DNA of 64,000 bases, taken from Dyadobacter sp. 50-39. Its GTDB lineage: Bacteria > Bacteroidota > Bacteroidia > Cytophagales > Spirosomataceae. The position numbers and the translations under genes are program-made. A model generated the notes under the pieces. It ran no database searches, was not told the origin of the DNA, and was given only the letters and a program-made list of their open reading frames with translations. Of this stretch, positions 26,710-38,138 are shown piece by piece. The stretch covers positions 124,001 to 188,000 of the forward strand of contig MKSR01000047.1 of the NCBI GenBank assembly GCA_001898145.1. Reading direction: 5' to 3'. The first letter of the stretch is position 1; each line of letters opens with the position of its first letter.

Positions 26710-28209
26710 TCAATCCTGGCAAATTACGACCGCCTCCATGTTGAGATATCCGGCTATTTTCGCAATTGCACTTGCGTGGTGACCTACGCCGAGCGCAAAA
26801 TGGTGCGTTGGGCCTTCTTTCATCCAGCGTTGAAGGAAGGTGCGCACATCGGGCCGGAAGAACCCGCGGGTGTTGGTGTTGCCCGTAGGTGGTATCGGCC
26901 CTTCTACGGACTGCCCTTCTGCGATGACAAATTTGAATTTCCCGTCATAGGTTGAATTGATGCTCAGCATTGTAATAGGCCCCTCCTTGATCTTGAATTC
27001 GACACCTGCCCCAAAGCCGGGTTTGCCATGATACTTGGTCAGGCTGCGAAGTACTGGTTTCCCTTCTGCGATGGCTACATTATGCGGTCCATCATGTCCG
27101 ACCAAGACAAACCCTTCCCGGAAGTCAACCGGATGAAATTCTGCAAAACTGCCGCCGATGCCTAGACGCTCCATGATTAGCATCGCAAAGCAGGTCTTCA
27201 AATCGGATTCGCCACACATGGGAAAGCCCGCGCCGGTAAGCAGCGAATTGCCCACAATCAGGTTGGACATTACCGTCCGTGTTTCGCTGTTCTCGGGCCC
27301 CTCGTAGTAATAGGCCAGTCCGTCCAGCCGTTTGGCCTGCACGAACTTTTCGAGCGCTACGGTTACGCGTGCGGCGGTTTCCAGATCGCTGTCGCGAAGC
27401 TTTTCAGAAATCGGGTCCGAAACCGGATCAGGCGTATCGAAAAAATCCAGGATGCGCGCCTTCATATTCTCAATGTCAGAACGGGCTGCCTGCTGATATT
27501 GCGTGACGATCTCATGGGCCTCGCATTGAACGATGTGCGCACCGAAATGCGCTGTGAACATCGTTGAGTCCGAATGCATATCCAGCATCGCCTCGATGGG
27601 GTGGCCAATATGACCAATTCGTGAAGTGCGTACATCGTGCAGGACCGCGGCAATGCGGCAATACTCCTGGATCTGCGCATCCGCTTCCGGGTCGCCGTGC
27701 AGTGTTCCGATGATCATATCGGGCACCTTCTTGCCCATACGGGCAGCCACGCCTGCAAATTCGGGTAGCGAGCAGATATCATCGTTATAGAGCTGCATGT
27801 ACGTCGAAGCGCGCGTGTAATCCATCGCTTGGTCGGGTTGCAGTGCAACCAGCACGATCGGCACATTTAAATTGCGAATAATGGTGCCGAAGGTATTAGA
27901 AGTCGCATACGTTAGCATGTCGCAAAAAATCATGTCCAGATTCGCCGCATGAAGCTTCGGAACCAGCGCATAGGCTTTCTCTACATTGTCCACCAGCCCG
28001 AAGTCCACCAGTTCTGCCTGTGAGCTGCTACGGATCTTTTCGATGAAAATCTGTTGTTTGTCCAGCATATCGTCCAGCAGTCCATCGAACTGTTCCCAAT
28101 ATTTGAAGTAGCCAACGCCAAATACGCCGATCCTGGGCCTGGTAGGCTGGCGTTTGCGGATGATCGCCTCGTCCAGCTGATGATTTTCAATTGGTAATGT
28201 ATTTCCCAT
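26710..28209 (-). CDS. L-fucose/L-arabinose isomerase family protein
   Basis: A 499-aa cytoplasmic protein in the fucose/arabinose isomerase fold: N-terminal Rossmann-like domain (RIGVFGVGYFKYWEQFDGL), middle domain with HIGHPIEAMLDMHSD, and C-terminal metal-site region including CGESDLKTCFAMLIMERLG, LVGHDGPHNVA and GVGHHASAIAKIAG. The Glu and His residues in these motifs are at positions expected for metal ligands of L-arabinose isomerase. Exact sugar not decidable. It is co-oriented with a transporter upstream and the secreted protein 45 bp downstream. A 19-bp operator-like motif lies 38 bp before its ATG. Confidence 0.8.
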   Translation of the reverse strand: MGNTLPIENHQLDEAIIRKRQPTRPRIGVFGVGYFKYWEQFDGLLDDMLDKQQIFIEKIRSSSQAELVDFGLVDNVEKAYALVPKLHAANLDMIFCDMLTYATSNTFGTIIRNLNVPIVLVALQPDQAMDYTRASTYMQLYNDDICSLPEFAGVAARMGKKVPDMIIGTLHGDPEADAQIQEYCRIAAVLHDVRTSRIGHIGHPIEAMLDMHSDSTMFTAHFGAHIVQCEAHEIVTQYQQAARSDIENMKARILDFFDTPDPVSDPISEKLRDSDLETAARVTVALEKFVQAKRLDGLAYYYEGPENSETRTVMSNLIVGNSLLTGAGFPMCGESDLKTCFAMLIMERLGIGGSFAEFHPVDFREGFVLVGHDGPHNVAIAEGKPVLRSLTKYHGKPGFGAGVEFKIKEGPITMLSINSTYDGKFKFVIAEGQSVEGPIPPTGNTNTRGFFRPDVRTFLQRWMKEGPTHHFALGVGHHASAIAKIAGYLNMEAVVICQD

Positions 28210-28246
28210 GAGTCGGTTAAAAATTTATTCTTACAATTTTAAGTAT

Positions 28247-28265
28247 TTATATCTTAACGCACTAA
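28247..28265 (-). promoter_or_regulatory. Shared 19-bp operator-like site before the isomerase gene
   Basis: TTATATCTTAACGCACTAA occurs exactly here and at 29563-29581. Its core CTTA-N6-TAAG (minus strand) is an imperfect palindrome. A weak -7-like box (minus TTCTTTTG, 28281-28274) lies just upstream, so a bound protein would block early transcription. Confidence 0.6.
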
Positions 28266-28306
28266 GTTGTTTCCAAAAGAATTTTTCCTTGCCGAGTTGA
28301 CACCAA

Positions 28307-29563
28307 TCAGTTGTTCATACTGCTGGCGGCTGTCCGAACCGCTGTTTGAGCATGCGCCGTGAAGAGGGGGGCCAGTTTGGGTATCAGCAGGATGAAAATC
28401 AGGAAAGCAAACGGATAGAGCAATCCCGATGCGATCCAGAGAGGCTTGTAGGAGTATTCTGCGATGATTTTTCCGATCATTGGGTTCAGTATCAGACTTG
28501 ACAATGCTCCCGCGGTGCCCGACAGCCCTACGACGGTCGATGTGGCGCCAGAGCCGAAAACGTCCGAAATAGCGGTAATGTAGTTGGTAATCCAGCAGCC
28601 ATGGGCGAACATATAAAGCGTCATCAACCCGACAGAGACAGCCACCGATGAGGTGTATCCGGTAAGCGGGACTGCCATGGTCAATCCGGCAGCGCAGCCC
28701 ATGACAATCTTACGGGCGCGGGCGGTTTCAACGTTTCTTCTGATAAGGCCATCAGAGAAATAGCCGCCAAGAATATTGGACAACCCCAATGCAAGGAATG
28801 GAATCCAGAAAAGGCTGCCAATCTGCTCATAGGGCACCTGACGCACTTCACTGAGATATTTGGGGATCCAGAACATCATAAAGTACATCACCGGATCCAA
28901 CAGGAAACGCACGCAGATAAAGACCCACGTGGCCCGATACCGAAGAATGGTCGCCAGTGGCGTGCCGGTGGTCTGATCGGTGGGAGCTGTGAGCGTTTTT
29001 TGGGAGTGCCAGGGAAGAAGTAGCCAGATGATCACCCAGACAATGCCGATCAATCCGGGAATTACAAAGCCTGCTCTCCATCCGTAACTGCTTGATATCC
29101 ATATAGTCAGTGGAGGGGCGATCACTGCTCCGATGGCAGAGCCGCCGATAGCGATTCCATTGGCGAGTGCCCGTTCCTTTTGATCAAACCATTCGTATAC
29201 TGTTTTTGCAGCACCGGGGAAGCACGCCCCTTCACCCATGCCCAGAAAGAAGCGGAAGGTAAGCAGCTGAGGCAGGTTGCTCATCACGCCATGCAGCGCA
29301 TTGGCCACCGACCATAGTGCTACCGCGATACCGAGCCCTTTTTTTGCGCCGATCGTATCAATGAGCCTGCCGCCGACGGTAAACATCAGTGCATAGCTCA
29401 AAAGAAAACTGGTGTTCACCCAGCCATATTCCACATCTGAGAATCCAAATTCCTGCTGAATCCGGATTACGGCAATCGACAGCACCTGCCGGTCAAGGAA
29501 GCTAAGGCCGGTGGCGATAAACACCAGGAAAACAACAAACCATCGGAAGTAGTTTTTCTTCAT
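28307..29563 (-). CDS. MFS transporter, ACS (anion:cation symporter) type
   Basis: A 418-aa major facilitator with about 12 membrane helices. The start RWFVVFLVFIATGLSFLDRQVLSIAV and the loop GGRLIDTIGAKKGLG match the ACS family (hexuronate, glucarate and related acid-sugar carriers), as does FFLGMGEGACFPGAAKTVYEWF. It probably imports the sugar or sugar acid handled by the isomerase-family enzyme downstream (97 bp away). The ATG abuts the 19-bp shared motif, and a good minus-strand promoter lies at 29601-29594. Confidence 0.85.
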   Translation of the reverse strand: MKKNYFRWFVVFLVFIATGLSFLDRQVLSIAVIRIQQEFGFSDVEYGWVNTSFLLSYALMFTVGGRLIDTIGAKKGLGIAVALWSVANALHGVMSNLPQLLTFRFFLGMGEGACFPGAAKTVYEWFDQKERALANGIAIGGSAIGAVIAPPLTIWISSSYGWRAGFVIPGLIGIVWVIIWLLLPWHSQKTLTAPTDQTTGTPLATILRYRATWVFICVRFLLDPVMYFMMFWIPKYLSEVRQVPYEQIGSLFWIPFLALGLSNILGGYFSDGLIRRNVETARARKIVMGCAAGLTMAVPLTGYTSSVAVSVGLMTLYMFAHGCWITNYITAISDVFGSGATSTVVGLSGTAGALSSLILNPMIGKIIAEYSYKPLWIASGLLYPFAFLIFILLIPKLAPLFTAHAQTAVRTAASSMNN

Positions 29564-30463: not shown

Positions 30464-31435
30464 CTAAACCTGATACTTAGACGGCCGCTTGTGAAGCGAC
30501 CATTCGAATAGGGCATAGAACGCTAACGCAGGCCAATGCCAAGCGGGCTGAAAATGCAGGGTCATCGCAATGTGCAATAAAATAAAACCTCTGACTGTGG
30601 AAACGATGGGCACCAGAGCGCCGTGCTCATTTTTCTGCTTCGTTAAGTGGCCTGCGACTTGTCCGAAAACCATTATCAGGGTTGCGGCTGCGCCAAAAAG
30701 TATTGTCCAAAGGCCCGTTTCTTTGAGCCTCCAAAATACTACCAGCGTGATCAAGGCGAAAGCATCCCCCACCAGCATGGTCCTGTTCCAACCAAAGACG
30801 ACGGGAAAGGTTTTGTAACCCGTGGCTTTGTCCGCCTCAATATCTTTTAAATACCCGATCAAGACGAAGTTTGCATAGCCAAAAAAGGTGATCAAAATGT
30901 AACCATAGCCGTAGGTGGGGAATTCCCAGTCAGTTTGGGGTTGCGAGACAAAATAGCCCATTACCGGTAACAATAGCACAATCCACGCATTGTAAAAGGG
31001 GCCGCCAAACCAAAGGTGCTTTTTGACCAGCGAATATGTGGACAGGCCAAACACCGAGGCAATGCTGAGCCAGAAACTCAGCGGGTGCAGCCAGCAGATG
31101 AGCAGACCGGAGAGCAGCAGGCCCGAAACGCTGATAAACATGACCGAACCGATGGATATGATTTCCCGGGAGAGTGGTCGATAGGGTGCCGAAAGCTTAT
31201 CGGTGTCGGTCTGGAAACAGTCGGTAAGCGCCTGACCGAAACCGTAGCCGAGAAAAAACGGAACAAAAGCAAGCCAGCACTTCCACTCCGGAGTCACTGA
31301 GGTTTTGCCCATGGCGATTCCCATTGCGCCTGCCGCCCCTGATACAAACAGCAGGTAGGGGCGCATCTGCACAGAGTATGCAACCCAAAACGAGCCGGAA
31401 TAAAGAGGATGATACTTTTTGACGGGGTATTTCAT
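30464..31435 (-). CDS. UbiA family prenyltransferase
   Basis: A 323-aa integral membrane protein with about eight to nine helices. The first aspartate-rich motif is QALTDCFQTDTDKLSAPYRPL (residues about 68-88; Asp-rich though the usual leading Asn is replaced) and the second is YLKDIEADKATGYKT (DxxxDK). These coordinate Mg-prenyl diphosphate in UbiA enzymes. The acceptor could be an aromatic, or a glycerol-phosphate as in archaeal-type lipid synthases. It is the last gene of a five-gene minus-strand operon, nine bases after the lipid-kinase gene, so a lipid acceptor is plausible. Confidence 0.8.
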   Translation of the reverse strand: MKYPVKKYHPLYSGSFWVAYSVQMRPYLLFVSGAAGAMGIAMGKTSVTPEWKCWLAFVPFFLGYGFGQALTDCFQTDTDKLSAPYRPLSREIISIGSVMFISVSGLLLSGLLICWLHPLSFWLSIASVFGLSTYSLVKKHLWFGGPFYNAWIVLLLPVMGYFVSQPQTDWEFPTYGYGYILITFFGYANFVLIGYLKDIEADKATGYKTFPVVFGWNRTMLVGDAFALITLVVFWRLKETGLWTILFGAAATLIMVFGQVAGHLTKQKNEHGALVPIVSTVRGFILLHIAMTLHFQPAWHWPALAFYALFEWSLHKRPSKYQV

Positions 31436-31444
31436 TTTTGCTAA

Positions 31445-32389
31445 TCAGGCATTGAGCAATTGGATAGCTTGGGGTAAAACTGAAACCCTGATATCGGTTG
31501 ACTCGGCTGTCTCTCCATCGCACTCAAAGATTATCGGTGTGGCAGAGCAGATTTGGAATTGATCAACCAGGGTGGAAATCCTTCTAGGGCCTGTATGGAA
31601 CTTTCCTTTTTCCAATGACATCAGCGTGCGCACCAGCTCCCACGTGCTCATGTTCGCACAAATATTTAGCCCAAGCACGCCGTCGTCGGGTAAAATGTTC
31701 TGCTGGTAGTGAAAGCTGCCGGAAACATAGGGAACTTTTAGTAGGTTGATATTGGAAAGACCAATCAGGAGCTCTGTACCGTTAAAATGAACTCGGACAG
31801 CTTTGTTGCGATAGGAAAGGATCGTTTTTAAGGCGGTATAGGTGATCGCCGCCTGGGTATTGATTTGCTTGATCCGCGTGAGAACTTTCCCAGGATTGTT
31901 AAAATGCCAGTTGCCCTCCGCTGTCACGCCCATGCTGGCATTGATGATGAAGTATCTTTTTTGATTGATATGGGCCTGGTCAATATAATTGATTTCACCC
32001 GCGTCTTGCAGTGTGATTGAATCTGTACGGATTCGGACTGGGATGTTTCCTACAAAGCTTCGGAACGGCTTTAAAAAGTCATTGCTGGACCCGAGCCCGA
32101 TCGCACCCAGACGATGCTTATCCGGCTCATTTCGTTCTAAAAGCATGTTGGCTATTTGATGGATGCTGCCATCTCCGCCCGCTGAAATGATACAGCTCTG
32201 TTGGTCAGTACTTAAAATTGGGTGTAGTTGAACGGCAAGATCGGCTATGCTTTCCGTAACCATCTCTTTTGCCAAAGGTAGTTGACCGATCACCTGGCTG
32301 CGGATGCTTTTCCATCTCATCCACCCTTTCCCCTGATGGCAATGCGGATTGATAACGATAAATGTCGGTTTGTTCTCAGTTACAGGCAC
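31445..32389 (-). CDS. Diacylglycerol kinase family lipid kinase
   Basis: A 314-aa protein with the DAGK catalytic fold: TFIVINPHCHQGKG at the start, the nucleotide loop SAGGDGSIHQIANML (GGDG motif) and GAIGLGSSNDFLKPF, then a C-terminal beta-sandwich with NASMGVTAEGN and DDGVLGL. Such enzymes phosphorylate diacylglycerol, sphingoid bases or related lipids. The start is a GTG at 32389, which overlaps the GNAT-like gene by ten bases; the frame is open further upstream but only within that gene. It belongs to the five-gene lipid-like operon. Confidence 0.8.
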   Translation of the reverse strand: MPVTENKPTFIVINPHCHQGKGWMRWKSIRSQVIGQLPLAKEMVTESIADLAVQLHPILSTDQQSCIISAGGDGSIHQIANMLLERNEPDKHRLGAIGLGSSNDFLKPFRSFVGNIPVRIRTDSITLQDAGEINYIDQAHINQKRYFIINASMGVTAEGNWHFNNPGKVLTRIKQINTQAAITYTALKTILSYRNKAVRVHFNGTELLIGLSNINLLKVPYVSGSFHYQQNILPDDGVLGLNICANMSTWELVRTLMSLEKGKFHTGPRRISTLVDQFQICSATPIIFECDGETAESTDIRVSVLPQAIQLLNA

Positions 32390-33327
32390 CTGGCGTCGAT
32401 GTTTACGCAATCGTTGTTGGTTAAATTGAAATCGCTCACAAGGCAATAGTCGTAGCTGTTGACAGCAATGCTTTTGAGCGAGTGAAAAATTGCGTCTCCC
32501 TTCTTGCAACATACCAGCAAATGGCTTATGCCCCTTTTTTGAAGGTCATGTAAAACCTCATTGATGCCTTCCAGGTTGTGGGGCGCGTGATTATACAGGA
32601 CTGAGAAGGAGATGGTATCTCCTTCCCCGGGCAACTTTCCATATTTGGCACGAAAGCATTTTTTTAGCAGCCGCAGACCAAATTTATACGCAGGTGCAAC
32701 GCTGCTGATTTTTACGCGATACATCTTAAAGGAATGAAAATGGCCCAAGCCGCTTTCAAATAGCGTATAGTATGTGCCAGGTACATCCTGCTGGTCGAAC
32801 AATCGTACCCCAAATTTTGGATGGTTTTGTCTGGATATAGGCGCGTTTCTCATCCTTGCCGATGCCGGTATAGTAAGGTAGGTAAAATCATATATCCAGG
32901 TTGCTGAAAAGGCACGCGAGATCATTTTTAATACGGGTATGTTGCTGGATTTGGCTGTCATGTAGTTTTTGGTAAGTCCATTTGGCTCAAAAAACTGCCC
33001 GTGCATTTGCTGGGCCAGCTTTGTTCCCAATCCCATTTTTCTTCGATTTAAAGCGATTTTCGCATCGAATCCAAAACCCGCCTGCATGCAGTTACCGTTG
33101 ACCTCAATGGTAGTTTGAGCGCCGATCGCAGTGCCAGCAATGTGCTGCTGCGGATCGGTCGCTAGTAGCGCCTGAAAGTTAGTGAAGACGATAGCCCGGC
33201 TCAGAAAGTGGTCTTTGACGATTTCGAGCTTGATAGAGCCACCCTGCACAATGCCCTTTTCAAAAAGCAAAAGAGGTTGATTGAGCGCTTCCGAGTAGGG
33301 AACGATGCGATAGTCCTTATTGGTCAT
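32380..33327 (-). CDS. GNAT-like acetyltransferase family protein
   Basis: A 315-aa protein. The first 130 residues suggest a GNAT N-acyltransferase fold: strands ending in FGFDAKIALNRRKMGLGTKLAQQMHG, with an R-K-M-G-L-G-T stretch in place of the acetyl-CoA loop Q/RxxGxG/A. The C-terminal ~100 residues form a second domain (SFSVLYNHAPHNLEGINEVLHDLQKRGISHLLVCC) that may be a second GNAT-like unit. Its ATG overlaps the stop of the BtaA-like gene (ATGA). Donor and acceptor are unknown; an amine on the lipid head group is a natural guess. Confidence 0.6.
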   Translation of the reverse strand: MTNKDYRIVPYSEALNQPLLLFEKGIVQGGSIKLEIVKDHFLSRAIVFTNFQALLATDPQQHIAGTAIGAQTTIEVNGNCMQAGFGFDAKIALNRRKMGLGTKLAQQMHGQFFEPNGLTKNYMTAKSSNIPVLKMISRAFSATWIYDFTYLTIPASARMRNAPISRQNHPKFGVRLFDQQDVPGTYYTLFESGLGHFHSFKMYRVKISSVAPAYKFGLRLLKKCFRAKYGKLPGEGDTISFSVLYNHAPHNLEGINEVLHDLQKRGISHLLVCCKKGDAIFHSLKSIAVNSYDYCLVSDFNLTNNDCVNIDARCL

Positions 33328-34415
33328 GGCTGGTGCGCGGAAGCAAATACCTGGTACATTCCTGTACTTTCATCGGCCGTATGTTCGTCCAGTTGCTTTA
33401 TGCCCAAAACCTGGCAGAAGCTGTTTTTGTCGGCGCGATTACGTAAAAATGTACGCCACACAATCGTGTGGCGCTGGGATTGCAATAGGGCTGACACATC
33501 TCGAAGATAGTCTGTATTTTCAAAGCTGAGCATATCTGATAACGAATAAAAAACGGGCGTTGAGAAGTGGTCCTTATAAGTTTGTACAAAGCTCAACAGG
33601 TCATGGGTATGGTAGTGAACCGCTAGCCTTGAAGAGGAGAGTCGCGATTTCGCCTTTTCCAGTACGTGGTTTTGCAATGATGGCGGAGTGTCTGTCTGCC
33701 TCATTTCACTTAAATGCCCGTTAAATATCAGGTGAAACATAAAACTGCTATGCGCCTTTCCGTTGCCGATCATTTCGTCCAGCGCGGAAGGGATGTAAGA
33801 AACCGTCGCATCCTGGCTGATAAATGCGGCGTCTTCATTACCCCAAAGCCGGTATATGAAGCGCATCGAAAAAACGCCGAGCAGTAATTTCCACCGTTTT
33901 TGGGGAAAGCTTTTTGGGATTCCCTTCTCAGTGAGGGTTCCTCGAAAGTTTCTTCCCAGAAATAAGTTTAAAAACGGACGTATCCGGCGGAGAAATTTTT
34001 CAAAATGCCCTGTGTGGACAACCCCTAGGCGGATTGATGCGATGTGATGCATCCAGTAGCGTTTGCAACATGCCGACAGCTCCCCCTGAATTTGACCAAA
34101 CCAATTCTCTCTCTGACGCGGCGCGGCAGGATTGTGCCCGCAAAACATCAGATAGTCTTCCACGCTGAGCACCTTCAATGCGGCCAGTTTTAACTGCAAA
34201 AGAAACAATGCGTCTTCATTCGCGTCAACGGCATGGATTTCACTGACGGCGTCATTATCCAGCAAAGCGATCACCCTTTCACCGCTGCCTGCTACTGCGA
34301 CAATGGTTTTGCTACCGGCTGCGTGCAGAACATCCCTTTCGATGCGGTTATCTTCGTTGACGTGGGAATAATATAGCATATCGGTTGCTGTAACGCCGTT
34401 ATAAGCCCGGATCAT
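33324..34415 (-). CDS. BtaA-like DUF3419 aminocarboxypropyl transferase
   Basis: A 363-aa protein of the DUF3419/BtaA family. The family pattern is present: DMLYYSHVNEDNRIERDVL, the SAM site VAVAGSGERVIALL, EIHAVDANEDALFLLQLKLAAL and a later NEDAAFISQDATVSYIPSALDEMI. In betaine-lipid synthesis BtaA moves the 3-amino-3-carboxypropyl group of SAM to diacylglycerol. No BtaB-like N-methyltransferase is near, so a different product is likely. It overlaps the ThiL-like gene by 17 bp and the GNAT-like gene by 4 bp. Confidence 0.75.
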   Translation of the reverse strand: MIRAYNGVTATDMLYYSHVNEDNRIERDVLHAAGSKTIVAVAGSGERVIALLDNDAVSEIHAVDANEDALFLLQLKLAALKVLSVEDYLMFCGHNPAAPRQRENWFGQIQGELSACCKRYWMHHIASIRLGVVHTGHFEKFLRRIRPFLNLFLGRNFRGTLTEKGIPKSFPQKRWKLLLGVFSMRFIYRLWGNEDAAFISQDATVSYIPSALDEMIGNGKAHSSFMFHLIFNGHLSEMRQTDTPPSLQNHVLEKAKSRLSSSRLAVHYHTHDLLSFVQTYKDHFSTPVFYSLSDMLSFENTDYLRDVSALLQSQRHTIVWRTFLRNRADKNSFCQVLGIKQLDEHTADESTGMYQVFASAHQP

Positions 34416-35448
34416 TTGTCCAATCTTGCTGCTGCTGCATCAATGCCCTCAGATAAGCGGCAATATCACCACCGGATTCATAGAACAGATTGGCAATCGT
34501 TGAAGGATGGCACCGGATAGCTGTGTGGCCAGAGGTAAACTCGAGCTGTATCTCAGAGCAAACGCTTCCCAGGTAAAGCGGTTCCCAGTTTGCTGATTGA
34601 CATGACTTCTCGAAGGCAATTCGCTTCTTCTGCGGAACAGTAAACAGCAGTTCGTACTCTCCATGCGGCCCTGCCAGAAGCATCCATTCAGGCAACTCGG
34701 CCTGCCGGTGCACTAGCAGTGCATCGGCAGACAATACATTGATTAAAGGCGTTTGCAGACAGAATCCGATCTGGTTGACCTCTGACAGAACGGCAAGCGC
34801 AGCAAAAAGCCCGTCGCTTGTATCGATACATACATTGGCGTGCTCGCCGATCAAATCCATTTCTTTCAGGCGGGCTGTCGGAAGGAATTGGACTTCCAGC
34901 GAGCGGTCAAAGAAGCGTGAGTAGCCAAAAGCATTGCCGGTACCGAGCTTTGCAGTGGTATAGAGCGCATCTCCAGGGTTTGCTCCGGTGCGTAACAGCG
35001 GCTCACCGGTTTTGATATGGGCAAAAGCAGTGACACTTACAGAAACAGTATCAGAGGAATTCGTATCACCGCCGAGCACATAGATCTGGTAGCAATCGCA
35101 GGCCTCGTTGACGCCCCGCTGAAATTCCAGTATCCAGTCCTGATTTTGATGCATTGGCAATTGCAGCGATAGCAAAATGCCTTCGGGAACCGCGCCCACA
35201 GCGGCAATATCGCTTATCGGAGCGGTTACCGACATCCAGCCGATCAGATAGGGGCTCTCATAGAGACCGGTCTTGATCTCCTCGTGAATGCCGTCGGTTT
35301 TCAGTACCAGGTATTGGCCGTTGTAGCGAAGTATTTCCGCGTCGGCTTGCATCAATTGATTGAGCTGGTTCGGATGCCTGGCAAACCTGCCGGCGATGTT
35401 GCGGATAAAGCCAGCTTCCTTATGGGTGTTTGTTACCATATCGATCAT
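34399..35448 (-). CDS. PurM/ThiL-like (AIR synthase-related) kinase
   Basis: A 349-aa protein of the AIR-synthase superfamily. The N-terminal half has LVLKTDGIHEEI, APISDIAAVGAVPEGILLSLQLP and YVLGGDTNSSDTVSVSVTAFA, the ThiL-style ATP/Mg site; the C-terminal half has CIDTSDGLFAALAVLSE and LLAGPHGEYELLFTV. ThiL phosphorylates thiamine phosphate, but no thiamine genes are near. The operon context (BtaA-like, lipid kinase, prenyltransferase) suggests it phosphorylates a carboxyl or other group of a lipid intermediate. It is the first gene of the coupled five-gene set; a second ATG at 35439 is possible. Confidence 0.75.
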   Translation of the reverse strand: MIDMVTNTHKEAGFIRNIAGRFARHPNQLNQLMQADAEILRYNGQYLVLKTDGIHEEIKTGLYESPYLIGWMSVTAPISDIAAVGAVPEGILLSLQLPMHQNQDWILEFQRGVNEACDCYQIYVLGGDTNSSDTVSVSVTAFAHIKTGEPLLRTGANPGDALYTTAKLGTGNAFGYSRFFDRSLEVQFLPTARLKEMDLIGEHANVCIDTSDGLFAALAVLSEVNQIGFCLQTPLINVLSADALLVHRQAELPEWMLLAGPHGEYELLFTVPQKKRIAFEKSCQSANWEPLYLGSVCSEIQLEFTSGHTAIRCHPSTIANLFYESGGDIAAYLRALMQQQQDWTNDPGL

Positions 35449-35556
35449 CTAGCCCGTGCAGGCCCATCGCAGCTTTGTGCCCGATACGCAAAAGTAGTTA
35501 CTTTTCTGCCAAATGCCCCAGCTGCTCCACGTTTACTTGGCGGGCCGATGAACGGT

Positions 35557-36396
35557 TCACGGATGTGCGATAAAAAATGGTAGGTCCAGGTTCCGGATCA
35601 ACGGATCGGCCGTGCTATGCATGAGCATGTTCGAAAATGCGTTGCGGCCGTAGGATCCCATCACTACCAAAGTCTTTTGTTTGTCGGCAAGGTAGGTAAA
35701 TAGTTCCGGATGCGTCCGGCCATGCAGTTTTTTGAAATGAACATTCGAATAGTGCAAACTGATCAACTGGGCGAGCTTGTCGGCATTCGGATCCTCGCTT
35801 TGGCCGTCATCGATTACCTGCACGATGGTCATCCGGCAATCTTCAAACTCGGGCAGCAGGTAAGAAAACTGTTTGATCGCATGGACCGCAGCGGCATTTC
35901 CATCATAGGCAAAAACGATCTCTTCGATGCCCGAAAATAGCCTTGGGGCAATCAGTACCGGGCACTCCACCGAATTGAGCAGCTCTTTGACAAAAACGCT
36001 GGGTTTGGCCTGATCGGAAGGTTCAAATGCCAATTCACTGCTTATTATCAGCAGGTCCGCATAACGGCTTTCGGCCAGAATTTCTTCAAGTGGTTGGTGT
36101 GAGTCAGTGCGTACACTGGCAGCGACACCTTGCTGACCGCAGATCGTGCGGAAAGTGTTTTCGCTGTCATCATGTATGGCTTTTCTTTCGCGGTAACCCG
36201 GAAGCTCAGACAGTTCGGCAGTCGCCCCGTTCTGTAGTACAAATGTCGATTTGCCAGCCTGGATATTATCTCCTGCATTGTTTTTAATGAAGACGCCGGT
36301 CAGGCGGGACTGCGACAGGGAGGCCAGGTAGCAGCCAAACCGGACATCGCCGGGGTTGAGGCGGTCAGCATCGATCGCAATTCGAATGTTTTTCAT
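35557..36396 (-). CDS. Universal stress protein, two domains
   Basis: A 279-aa UspA-type protein. The N-terminal half starts NIRIAIDADRLNPGDVRFGCYLA and the C-terminal half ends VVMGSYGRNAFSNMLMHSTADPLIRNLDLPFFIAHP, with the usual nucleotide-loop pattern only in the second half. It lies 13 bp after the CoA-transferase gene and 108 bp before the ThiL-like gene, so it could share a transcript with both. It is only distantly similar to the USP at 13.5 kb. Confidence 0.8.
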   Translation of the reverse strand: MKNIRIAIDADRLNPGDVRFGCYLASLSQSRLTGVFIKNNAGDNIQAGKSTFVLQNGATAELSELPGYRERKAIHDDSENTFRTICGQQGVAASVRTDSHQPLEEILAESRYADLLIISSELAFEPSDQAKPSVFVKELLNSVECPVLIAPRLFSGIEEIVFAYDGNAAAVHAIKQFSYLLPEFEDCRMTIVQVIDDGQSEDPNADKLAQLISLHYSNVHFKKLHGRTHPELFTYLADKQKTLVVMGSYGRNAFSNMLMHSTADPLIRNLDLPFFIAHP

Positions 36397-36409
36397 GATG
36401 GTTGATTGG

Positions 36410-37921
36410 TTAAACGGTTTCAGGCAGATGGCTTTTCATCGAACCAGTCGAAGCCAGGTTGGTATACCATTGGAAAGCTTCTTCCAAAAGGTGCGGGGTG
36501 TGGCCGCCGCGGCGGCAGGCCCGTTGGTGGTAATCTGCAAGCTCGTCACGGTAATCCGGATGCGCGCAGTGCCGTATCACGGCCGCCGCTTTTTGTCTTG
36601 GAGCAAGACCCCTCAGATCGGCCAGTCCCTGCTCTGTGACTATGATATCGACGTCGTGTTCGGAGTGGTCCACGTGGGTGACCATTGGTACTATTCGTGA
36701 AATGCTGCCGCCTTTGGCGATGGATTCGGTCACGAAGATGCTCAGGTAGCTGTTTTGAGCGAAATCCGCCGACCCGCCAATGCCGTTGACGATTTGGCTG
36801 CCGGATATGTGCGACGAATTGACATTACCATAAATGTCACATTCCAAGGCTGTATTGATGGCGATGATGCCTAATCGCTGGATAATTTCTGCTGCATTGG
36901 TTATGTCTTGCGGACGCAGCACTATTTGGTGCCGGTATTTTTCGAAACCCGACAGAACCCGCTGGTAGCACTCCTCAGACAATGTAATAGAACTACCCGA
37001 GGCGAAATCGAGTTTTCCGCTGTCGATCAGTTTGAATGTACTGTCCTGCAACACTTCTGAGTACATCGTCAGGTGCTGAAAGTCCCCGTCAGCGAGCCCA
37101 GCAAGTACAGCGTCAGCAATTTTACCTATCCCAGCCTGTATGGGCCGCAGGGAAGGAGCGAGCCTGCCCCTTTCAATTTCACTTTCAAAAAAGCGCAGCA
37201 AATGCCTGGCGATGGCCTCCGCTGATTTGTTGCCGGCTACCGTCTCGGCGGGGCTGTCCTTTTGATTGGTGAAGACGATCGCCACGATTTTTTCAGGATC
37301 GCAGGCCATCGTTTCCTGGCCAATGCGCTGCCAGACGTCGGTGATGGGAAGGATAGCCCTACCGGTAGGATCTTCGGGAAGAAATATGTCGTGAATGCCT
37401 CGTATGGTTTCCGGTACGGCCTGATTGATTTCCACAATCACCTTGCCGGCGCGTTGCAGGAAAATGGGCGAATTGCCCACCGAGGTGGTAGGGACGATGC
37501 TGCCATCAGCCTCAATGCAGGCTGCTTCAACGATGGCTATATCGATAGCAGGTAAGAAGCCGTTGCGGATATGGGCGGCGGTTTCACTCAGGTTTTCATC
37601 GATGTAATACAGTCCCCCTTCATTGATAATTGTACGCATCACCGGGTCTGACTGGAAAGGGAGCCGCATGGCGATTGAGCCAGCCGTTGCAAGTTTACCG
37701 TCCGTACCTTGCCCGAGCGATGCTCCGGTCATCAATGTAATGCGGCTAGGGGCGGTTTCAGCATTTTCGGCAAAAGCTGCCAGTACGGCTTTACTGTCGC
37801 CCGATCTGGTAAAACCGCTTGCGGCGACGGTCATGCCATCCTCTATGAAAGCTGCGGCACTCCGGGCAGACATGATTTTTGAAGCAAGACCTTTATGTTT
37901 AATTCTGGAAGTGTCCGGCAT
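36410..37921 (-). CDS. Acetyl-CoA hydrolase/transferase family (succinate:acetate CoA-transferase type)
   Basis: A 503-aa class I CoA-transferase. Signs are SARSAAAFIEDGMTVAASGFTRSGDSKAVLAAF near the start, the oxyanion and CoA loops (GASLGQGTDG, PTTSVGNSPIFL), the candidate catalytic Glu in HLTMYSEVLQD, and GIGGSADFAQNSYLSIFVTES near the end. It likely swaps CoA between acetyl-CoA and succinate or propionate. The ATG at 37921 is preferred; a TTG at 37948 would add nine residues. It is followed by a USP 13 bp on. Confidence 0.85.
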   Translation of the reverse strand: MPDTSRIKHKGLASKIMSARSAAAFIEDGMTVAASGFTRSGDSKAVLAAFAENAETAPSRITLMTGASLGQGTDGKLATAGSIAMRLPFQSDPVMRTIINEGGLYYIDENLSETAAHIRNGFLPAIDIAIVEAACIEADGSIVPTTSVGNSPIFLQRAGKVIVEINQAVPETIRGIHDIFLPEDPTGRAILPITDVWQRIGQETMACDPEKIVAIVFTNQKDSPAETVAGNKSAEAIARHLLRFFESEIERGRLAPSLRPIQAGIGKIADAVLAGLADGDFQHLTMYSEVLQDSTFKLIDSGKLDFASGSSITLSEECYQRVLSGFEKYRHQIVLRPQDITNAAEIIQRLGIIAINTALECDIYGNVNSSHISGSQIVNGIGGSADFAQNSYLSIFVTESIAKGGSISRIVPMVTHVDHSEHDVDIIVTEQGLADLRGLAPRQKAAAVIRHCAHPDYRDELADYHQRACRRGGHTPHLLEEAFQWYTNLASTGSMKSHLPETV

Positions 37922-38138
37922 GATTACGCTTGTTTGGGTTACCAGCAAATCTTTTTGTTTAATTAACTACCTCAAAATAAGCGCTGTGCCGGCTGAAAAA
38001 ACTTGATCGTCCTTATGTCTGCATATGATCTGCGTCAGTTTTTATCCTGCCGGGAATTGACCGCTCAGTGCAAGCGCAACATTACATTAGTAAAAACCCT
38101 GGCTGGGGTGGATTTACTTTTTACAGGGAAAGTTGTTG

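Follow-up and report, generated by a model that had tools for sequence, protein, structure and literature searches.

What is made by five genes that lie side by side in Dyadobacter sp. 50-39, and do they belong together at all? The genes are open reading frames (ORFs) on the minus strand at 30464-35448 of a 64-kb stretch of contig MKSR01000047.1 (the window), and their order of transcription is ThiL-like kinase, DUF3419 (BtaA-like) protein, GNAT-like protein, diacylglycerol kinase (DAGK)-like protein and UbiA-like prenyltransferase. An earlier note had read them as a coupled operon for an undescribed lipid. The positions of the ORFs confirm five genes in one direction, and profile searches with Pfam and curated models gave the family that the note had named for each, that of the GNAT-like protein by way of its orthologues. 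In this study, the conservation, the family assignments and the predicted structures of this cassette were analyzed. The cassette is very probably a lipid pathway. The whole scheme, namely a dedicated lipid-assembly operon that occurs as one cassette in scattered Bacteroidota and acts by the steps proposed below, is offered tentatively, its chance being judged somewhat short of even. The lipid reading of the earlier note is upheld in part: the co-occurrence of the families and the S-adenosylmethionine (SAM) fold stand, the GNAT-like protein is defined more closely, and the role given to the ThiL-like protein would be better read another way. The locus offers a compact and testable way to reach a lipid that is probably undescribed, and does so in culturable Dyadobacter.

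Conservation and distribution of the cassette

A named genome collection of 84,980 species was scanned with a two-sequence DUF3419 alignment by way of two short peptide patterns, and the nine loci of the operon-type DUF3419 that were recovered are, given these patterns, a lower bound. All five genes, in identical order and strand, are present at eight of the nine, including the ThiL-like orthologues (8/9); the ninth (L085) is on a contig of 4.2 kb that breaks off within the DUF3419 gene. Co-occurrence across Bacteroidota, which had been set as a check on the lipid reading, was thus borne out. The bearers are Dyadobacter sp. BIN28, a D. fermentans record (L078), a Chitinophagaceae metagenome-assembled genome (MAG), a MAG labelled Williamsia (a label that may be wrong), a Bacteroidetes MAG, Hyunsoonleella aquatilis and two Seonamhaeicola species, and their proteins are 31-71% identical to those of the window. 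Over about 3.9 kb, two genomes assigned to the genus of the window are identical to L077 and L078, both named Dyadobacter records.

The flanks of the window, L077, L078, L079, L080 and L081 are unrelated (E ≤ 1e-10) save for one MFS match at 24%, and three Flavobacteriaceae loci have flanks in common. The cassette thus stayed together as the flanks changed. The ratio of nonsynonymous to synonymous substitution rates (dN/dS) falls at 0.09-0.11 in each of the five genes and shows purifying selection; it was obtained from L077 versus L078 only, the window comparisons having a dS that was saturated or not computable. Furthermore, pairwise protein distances among the five genes correlate with r of 0.925-0.989 (36 pairs), to which shared species history contributes.

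In smaller samples, DUF3419 matches were found in 10 of 150 genomes of the family, the window's own included, in 25 of 395 of the class (E ≤ 0.001; above 104 bits only in the window's own) and in 35 of 395 of the phylum, where one other sequence is close (39%) and is the same as that of the ninth locus. Of the nine other family-sample genomes, eight were examined around DUF3419 and have no operon partners there; the match in the ninth, G046, is weak and was not included. A GNAT relative occurs in one of the 395 phylum genomes, the window's own. A fourth bearer within the genus (G1197) is collinear with L078 from the end of ThiL into UbiA. No relative was found among the viral contigs searched, and the plasmid search gave one partial match, in Rhizobium.

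The five enzymes and the accessory genes

Membership of the BtaA-like protein in DUF3419 (PF11899) is clear at 94.7 bits, the cut-off being 28.2. Structure models were computed for this protein and for the GNAT-like protein. The DUF3419 model, with a mean predicted local distance difference test (pLDDT) score of 85, has a class I SAM-methyltransferase fold, and a G43-S-G-E-R loop and the acidic D64 are invariant in 10/10 DUF3419 sequences. The SAM pocket, whose lack would have told against the earlier reading, is therefore represented by both the modelled fold and the invariant motif. A profile sequence search of solved structures gave no convincing relative of this protein. The absence of a BtaB gene, noted before for the window operon, extends to the eight relative operons, in which no further methyltransferase was found among the ORFs of at least 150 aa, all of which were accounted for. 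To our knowledge, the four partner genes of the cassette form no part of the BtaA/BtaB pathway. BtaA transfers an aminocarboxypropyl group to make a betaine lipid (PMC10491745). The cassette resembles the BtaA/BtaB route to the betaine lipid DGTS in its DUF3419 enzyme, the proposed aminocarboxypropyl transfer from SAM and the lipid context, whereas it lacks an adjacent methyltransferase, has a DUF3419 protein only 23-28% identical to the canonical type and is accompanied in most relatives by an alpha-oxoamine synthase. The cassette suggests a wider role for DUF3419 enzymes than the synthesis of betaine lipids.

The GNAT-like protein does belong to the GNAT family, as had been noted, and is more precisely a tandem GNAT with a predicted fold like that of the N-myristoyltransferase (NMT) of animals and fungi. 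Three of the eight operon orthologues were scanned (L079, L080 and L082), and each passes a GNAT cut-off; the window protein gave no Pfam match at E ≤ 1. In the model, the predicted tandem GNAT fold of NMT type is matched through to the chain end, residue 315 pairing with residue 496 of NMT1, and the C-terminus is invariant in 12/12 GNAT-like sequences. The catalytic base of NMT1 is its own C-terminal carboxylate (PMC7048800). Unlike eukaryotic NMT, the window protein is bacterial, lies in a lipid operon, has no NMT sequence match and has no evident peptide substrate; a predicted NMT fold with a conserved chain end in a bacterial protein bears on the origin of the eukaryotic enzyme. NpuN, a bacterial long-acyl tandem GNAT, is similar in its tandem architecture, in the P-loop of its N-terminal half and in the long-chain acyl transfer proposed for it. 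However, as it is described in PMC13060382, NpuN acylates a lanthipeptide lysine and its nearest solved fold is a single-domain GNAT, not NMT. The aminolipid N-acyltransferases OlsB, OlsF, GlsB and GluB likewise join a fatty acid to an amino group by an amide bond in lipids of Bacteroidota, but share a common PF13444 domain (PMC11631085), for which no match was listed in the window GNAT-like protein or the scanned operon orthologues. Copies of the NMT-like GNAT family that lack the four partner genes were also seen in three genomes of another family of the order, beside NADH-dehydrogenase-looking genes (L032:8600-9550, L033:9061-10011 and L034:8649-9599), with the C-terminus conserved in these as well.

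The ThiL-like protein matches Pfam AIRS at 79.1 bits (cut-off 24), and its nearest solved relative is the thiamine-monophosphate kinase 5cc8 (E 1.3e-42). On what we take to be the nucleotide side, GGDT is present in 9/9 sequences and SDG in 8/9 (SDA in L081), whereas the ThiL motifs GDDAA and GGED, which we take to be on the substrate side, are replaced by the equally invariant xDAE and GPHGE in 9/9. The possibility that this protein is the housekeeping ThiL was rejected: it scores 165.0 bits against TIGR01379, below the equivalog cut-off of 184.15, its substrate-side motifs are replaced, and a separate ThiL gene on contig 19 of the same genome scores 306.4 bits. The second kinase matches DAGK_cat (PF00781) at 39.4 bits (cut-off 23.6) and YegS_C at 44.6 bits (cut-off 27), and its nucleotide motif SAGGDGS (GGDG) is invariant in 9/9.

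The UbiA-like protein scores 76.1 bits against PF01040 (cut-off 34.2). Its nearest solved relative is digeranylgeranylglyceryl phosphate (DGGGP) synthase 6m31 (E 1.6e-9), although against the DGGGP-synthase model NF009522 it reaches 57.5 bits, far from the cut-off of 353. D72, D79, D198 and D202 of its two Asp-rich motifs, as placed by alignment to 6m31, are invariant. The ebo operon is likewise a conserved operon with a UbiA protein (EboC) and has Bacteroidota among its hosts; identity of the cassette with it was rejected, since the gene set described in PMC9235831 is a different one and the EboC model gives 28.9 against 250 bits.

Fuller operons are found in most relatives. Six of the eight (L079-L084) have an alpha-oxoamine synthase gene between those of ThiL and DUF3419, and these synthases are 47-83% identical to each other; that of L079 is below the cut-off of every named model listed, of which bioF and serine palmitoyltransferase score highest. 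Between GNAT and DAGK is a slot that holds a P450 and a fatty-acid desaturase in L079, an MMPL transporter in L081-L084 and nothing in L080. The cassettes of the window, L077 and L078 have neither the synthase nor any gene in this slot. An operon-type synthase elsewhere in Dyadobacter is unsupported: the synthases of the window, L077 and L078 genomes are of other types (≤ 38% identity), the best matches to the L079 enzyme being at 38% compared with 48-64% for the other operon members. The window genome encodes a serine palmitoyltransferase and a glycine C-acetyltransferase above cut-off, plus three other synthases. Because these three cassettes lack the synthase and no operon-type copy was found elsewhere, the core would seem to work without it, and because the more distant relatives have it, its loss in Dyadobacter would be the simpler history. 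A lipid product is in keeping with these accessory genes (synthase, P450, desaturase and MMPL).

Proposed pathway and rival explanations

ThiL phosphorylates a phosphate, a lipid kinase phosphorylates an alcohol and UbiA enzymes use up diphosphates. In the proposed scheme, the DUF3419 protein would transfer the 3-amino-3-carboxypropyl group from SAM to a lipid, and the NMT-like enzyme, using its own C-terminal carboxylate as the base, would N-acylate an amine, either that of the aminocarboxypropyl group or that of a long-chain base from the alpha-oxoamine synthase. The DAGK-like kinase would convert a lipid alcohol to the monophosphate and the ThiL-like kinase the lipid monophosphate to the diphosphate, as ThiL does with thiamine phosphate, and UbiA would take this lipid diphosphate as its alkyl donor. 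In half of the relatives the product may be exported by the MMPL transporter. We infer the order of the steps, the acceptor, the chain and the sequence of two kinases and then UbiA. The kinase role assigned earlier to the ThiL-like protein is thus retained, and its supposed activation of the product would be better read as a second phosphorylation that feeds UbiA. No prenyl-diphosphate synthase was seen in the operon spans of the eight relatives, where the two kinases are present. A comparable supply of UbiA enzymes by two successive phosphorylations to a diphosphate donor, by a prenol kinase and then a prenyl-phosphate kinase, is known from photosynthetic organisms (PMC10849223); however, those kinases belong to other families than the cassette's.

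It is possible, at a probability well below even, that the product represents a novel class of bacterial lipid, either secreted or part of the membrane, in which NMT-like N-acylation of an aminocarboxypropyl or sphingoid amine by C-terminal-carboxylate catalysis is combined with a lipid kinase and a repurposed ThiL that make UbiA's diphosphate stepwise. If true, the NMT fold would here serve lipid synthesis in a bacterium and a descendant of ThiL would act on a lipid phosphate; neither was found in the open-licence literature. The claim that the pathway is undescribed also held in that literature, where no account of the five-gene set was found, which falls short of proof. The families are known; what appears to be new is their combination, together with an NMT-like fold in an operon of this kind and a remodelled ThiL. 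The cassette also brings together two unexpected re-uses: a kinase of ThiL type whose substrate side has been rebuilt, and a bacterial protein with a predicted NMT fold and a conserved chain end.

Several observations weigh against the lipid scheme. In the first UbiA motif, Gln stands in place of one Asp in 9/9. The Foldseek E-values of the DUF3419 model are weak (best 0.01), and because the identity of the window protein to the canonical type is only ~23-28%, its acceptor and even its reaction may, as judged from sequence, be different. No sequence similarity to NMT was detected for the GNAT-like protein, either by Pfam or among 18 solved sequences (E ≤ 1 in both). The cassette is also rare and patchy, with a GNAT of the operon type in 4/48 genomes of the genus, its own included. 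In the order, GNAT relatives occur in 4/390 genomes, again including its own, and in three of these four none of the other four genes lies within 18 kb of the GNAT copy.

A sphingoid-based lipid or secreted metabolite is a minority possibility. The alpha-oxoamine synthase, or in Dyadobacter the housekeeping serine palmitoyltransferase, would make a long-chain amino ketone and the NMT-like enzyme would N-acylate it; the DAGK-like protein would be a sphingoid or ceramide kinase, DUF3419 and UbiA would decorate the head, and the ThiL-like protein would phosphorylate another intermediate. The synthase of six of the eight relative operons, the serine palmitoyltransferase above cut-off in the window genome and the oxidative genes and MMPL of the relatives are consistent with this route. 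However, the window, L077 and L078 cassettes have no synthase, nor is an operon-type copy found elsewhere in those genomes, and the synthase that does occur reaches the cut-off of no named enzyme model listed. An ether lipid of archaeal type, with an amino acid as its head, is improbable. Here a DGGGP-synthase-like UbiA would act on geranylgeranylglyceryl phosphate (GGGP) from a PcrB-family enzyme, and DUF3419 would add a homoserine head after dephosphorylation. DGGGP synthase is the nearest to this UbiA by models as well as solved structures, a PcrB-family gene (128.9 bits) is present on contig 8 of the same genome, and activity in vitro has been reported for GGGP synthases of Bacteroidetes (PMC7852524). 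Nevertheless, the DGGGP-synthase model is missed by a wide margin (57.5 versus 353 bits), the PcrB gene is on a different contig and the two kinases have no clear place.

A variant of the betaine-lipid pathway, in which DUF3419 makes a homoserine ether of diacylglycerol that is N-acylated rather than methylated while the DAGK-like kinase balances diacylglycerol, is given similarly little credence. The DUF3419 score above cut-off and the aminocarboxypropyl transfer by BtaA (PMC10491745) speak for it, whereas the eight relative operons contain no further methyltransferase, the UbiA and ThiL-like genes are left unexplained, and a second DUF3419 protein of the same genome fits the family better (205.6 versus 85 bits). 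Chance grouping of unrelated genes, in favour of which stands only the rarity of the cassette, is very improbable and was rejected on synteny, selection and the changed flanks, the order being fixed in 8/9 loci at 31-71% identity and dN/dS being ~0.1.

Gene layout and other DUF3419 clusters

The features are listed in Table 1. The 4-bp overlap, the 10-bp overlap and the 9-bp gap reported earlier between the genes were reproduced, and the 17-bp overlap of the ThiL-like and DUF3419 genes is doubtful. A 19-bp gap is likelier, because the DUF3419 proteins of the close orthologues L077 and L078 start with MLYYSHVNED, which corresponds to Met13 of the window ORF.

Table 1. Features of the cassette and of the stretch upstream of it (positions in the window)
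Feature	Position	Strand	Remarks
ThiL/PurM-superfamily kinase-like protein	34399-35448	(-)	349 aa, first gene of cassette
DUF3419 (BtaA-like) protein, putative SAM aminocarboxypropyl transferase	33324-34379	(-)	likelier ATG at 34379; ORF open from ATG 34415 (363 aa)
GNAT-like protein: tandem GNAT, NMT-like predicted fold, invariant C-terminus	32380-33327	(-)	315 aa
DAGK/YegS-type lipid kinase	31445-32389	(-)	GTG start at 32389; longest ORF from 32512
UbiA-superfamily prenyltransferase	30464-31435	(-)	323 aa, last gene of cassette
Intergenic stretch upstream of cassette	35449-35556	(-)	108 bp, holds TACTTTTG at 35496-35489

The sequence TACTTTTG fits what we take to be the Bacteroidota -7 box; a box of this type lies upstream of only two of nine operons and is weak evidence. 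Matches to sigma-70-type promoters were at background (9 found versus 8.7 expected), which terminator-like sites somewhat exceeded (14 versus 8.8 expected, standard deviation 3.3), none of either being convincing. Upstream, at 35557-37948, the window encodes a universal-stress-type protein and a succinyl-CoA:acetate CoA-transferase (ScpC, above cut-off), no relatives of which flank the L077-L081 cassettes. Downstream, at 26710-29563, a distant sugar-isomerase-like protein, whose scores with the models of L-arabinose and sulfoquinovose isomerases fall far short of the cut-offs, adjoins an MFS transporter.

A second DUF3419 cluster, with a canonical DUF3419, is located on contig 1 of the same genome (L017:4173-13204). 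Its genes encode an HMG-CoA reductase, a UbiA protein (weak, 30.1 bits for a cut-off of 34.2), a PPDK/PEP-utiliser, DUF3419, a dolichol/phytol-kinase-like protein (218 aa), a GNAT-like protein and an AMP-ligase; the dolichol/phytol-kinase-like and GNAT-like proteins were named by eye and have no Pfam match. When 20 Bacteroidota DUF3419 loci (L017-L025 and L066-L076) were compared, all seven genes of this set were found in seven, five genes in L020 (at a contig start) and a partial set in L066, the other 11 having neither cluster. The second cluster resembles the cassette in pairing DUF3419 with UbiA, a GNAT-like protein and two kinase-like proteins, but it is not orthologous: the UbiA profiles match weakly (probability 73%) and the GNAT profiles do not match (2.5%), so that homology of the two GNAT-like proteins is unsupported by this comparison. 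No description of the second cluster was found in the literature, in which no search was aimed at the whole set.

Other settings of DUF3419 were also observed. At L066:898-8635 it is near a DAGK-like gene, UbiA, a PPDK-like gene, a GNAT-like gene without a Pfam match and a phosphatidylserine decarboxylase, followed as far as 13842 by an isopentenyl-diphosphate isomerase and a polyprenyl synthetase, assigned by eye. At L085:2050-4212 an operon-type DUF3419 and a GNAT-like gene of another kind, which scores 24.6 bits for Acetyltransf_9 (cut-off 25), are divergently oriented. On the Rhizobium rhododendri plasmid NZ_CP117268.1 (L035:4755-11146), DUF3419 is in a setting that by eye resembles a biosynthetic cluster, with ketoacyl-synthase-III-like, epimerase-like, metallo-hydrolase-like and adenylate-forming-like genes as its neighbours.

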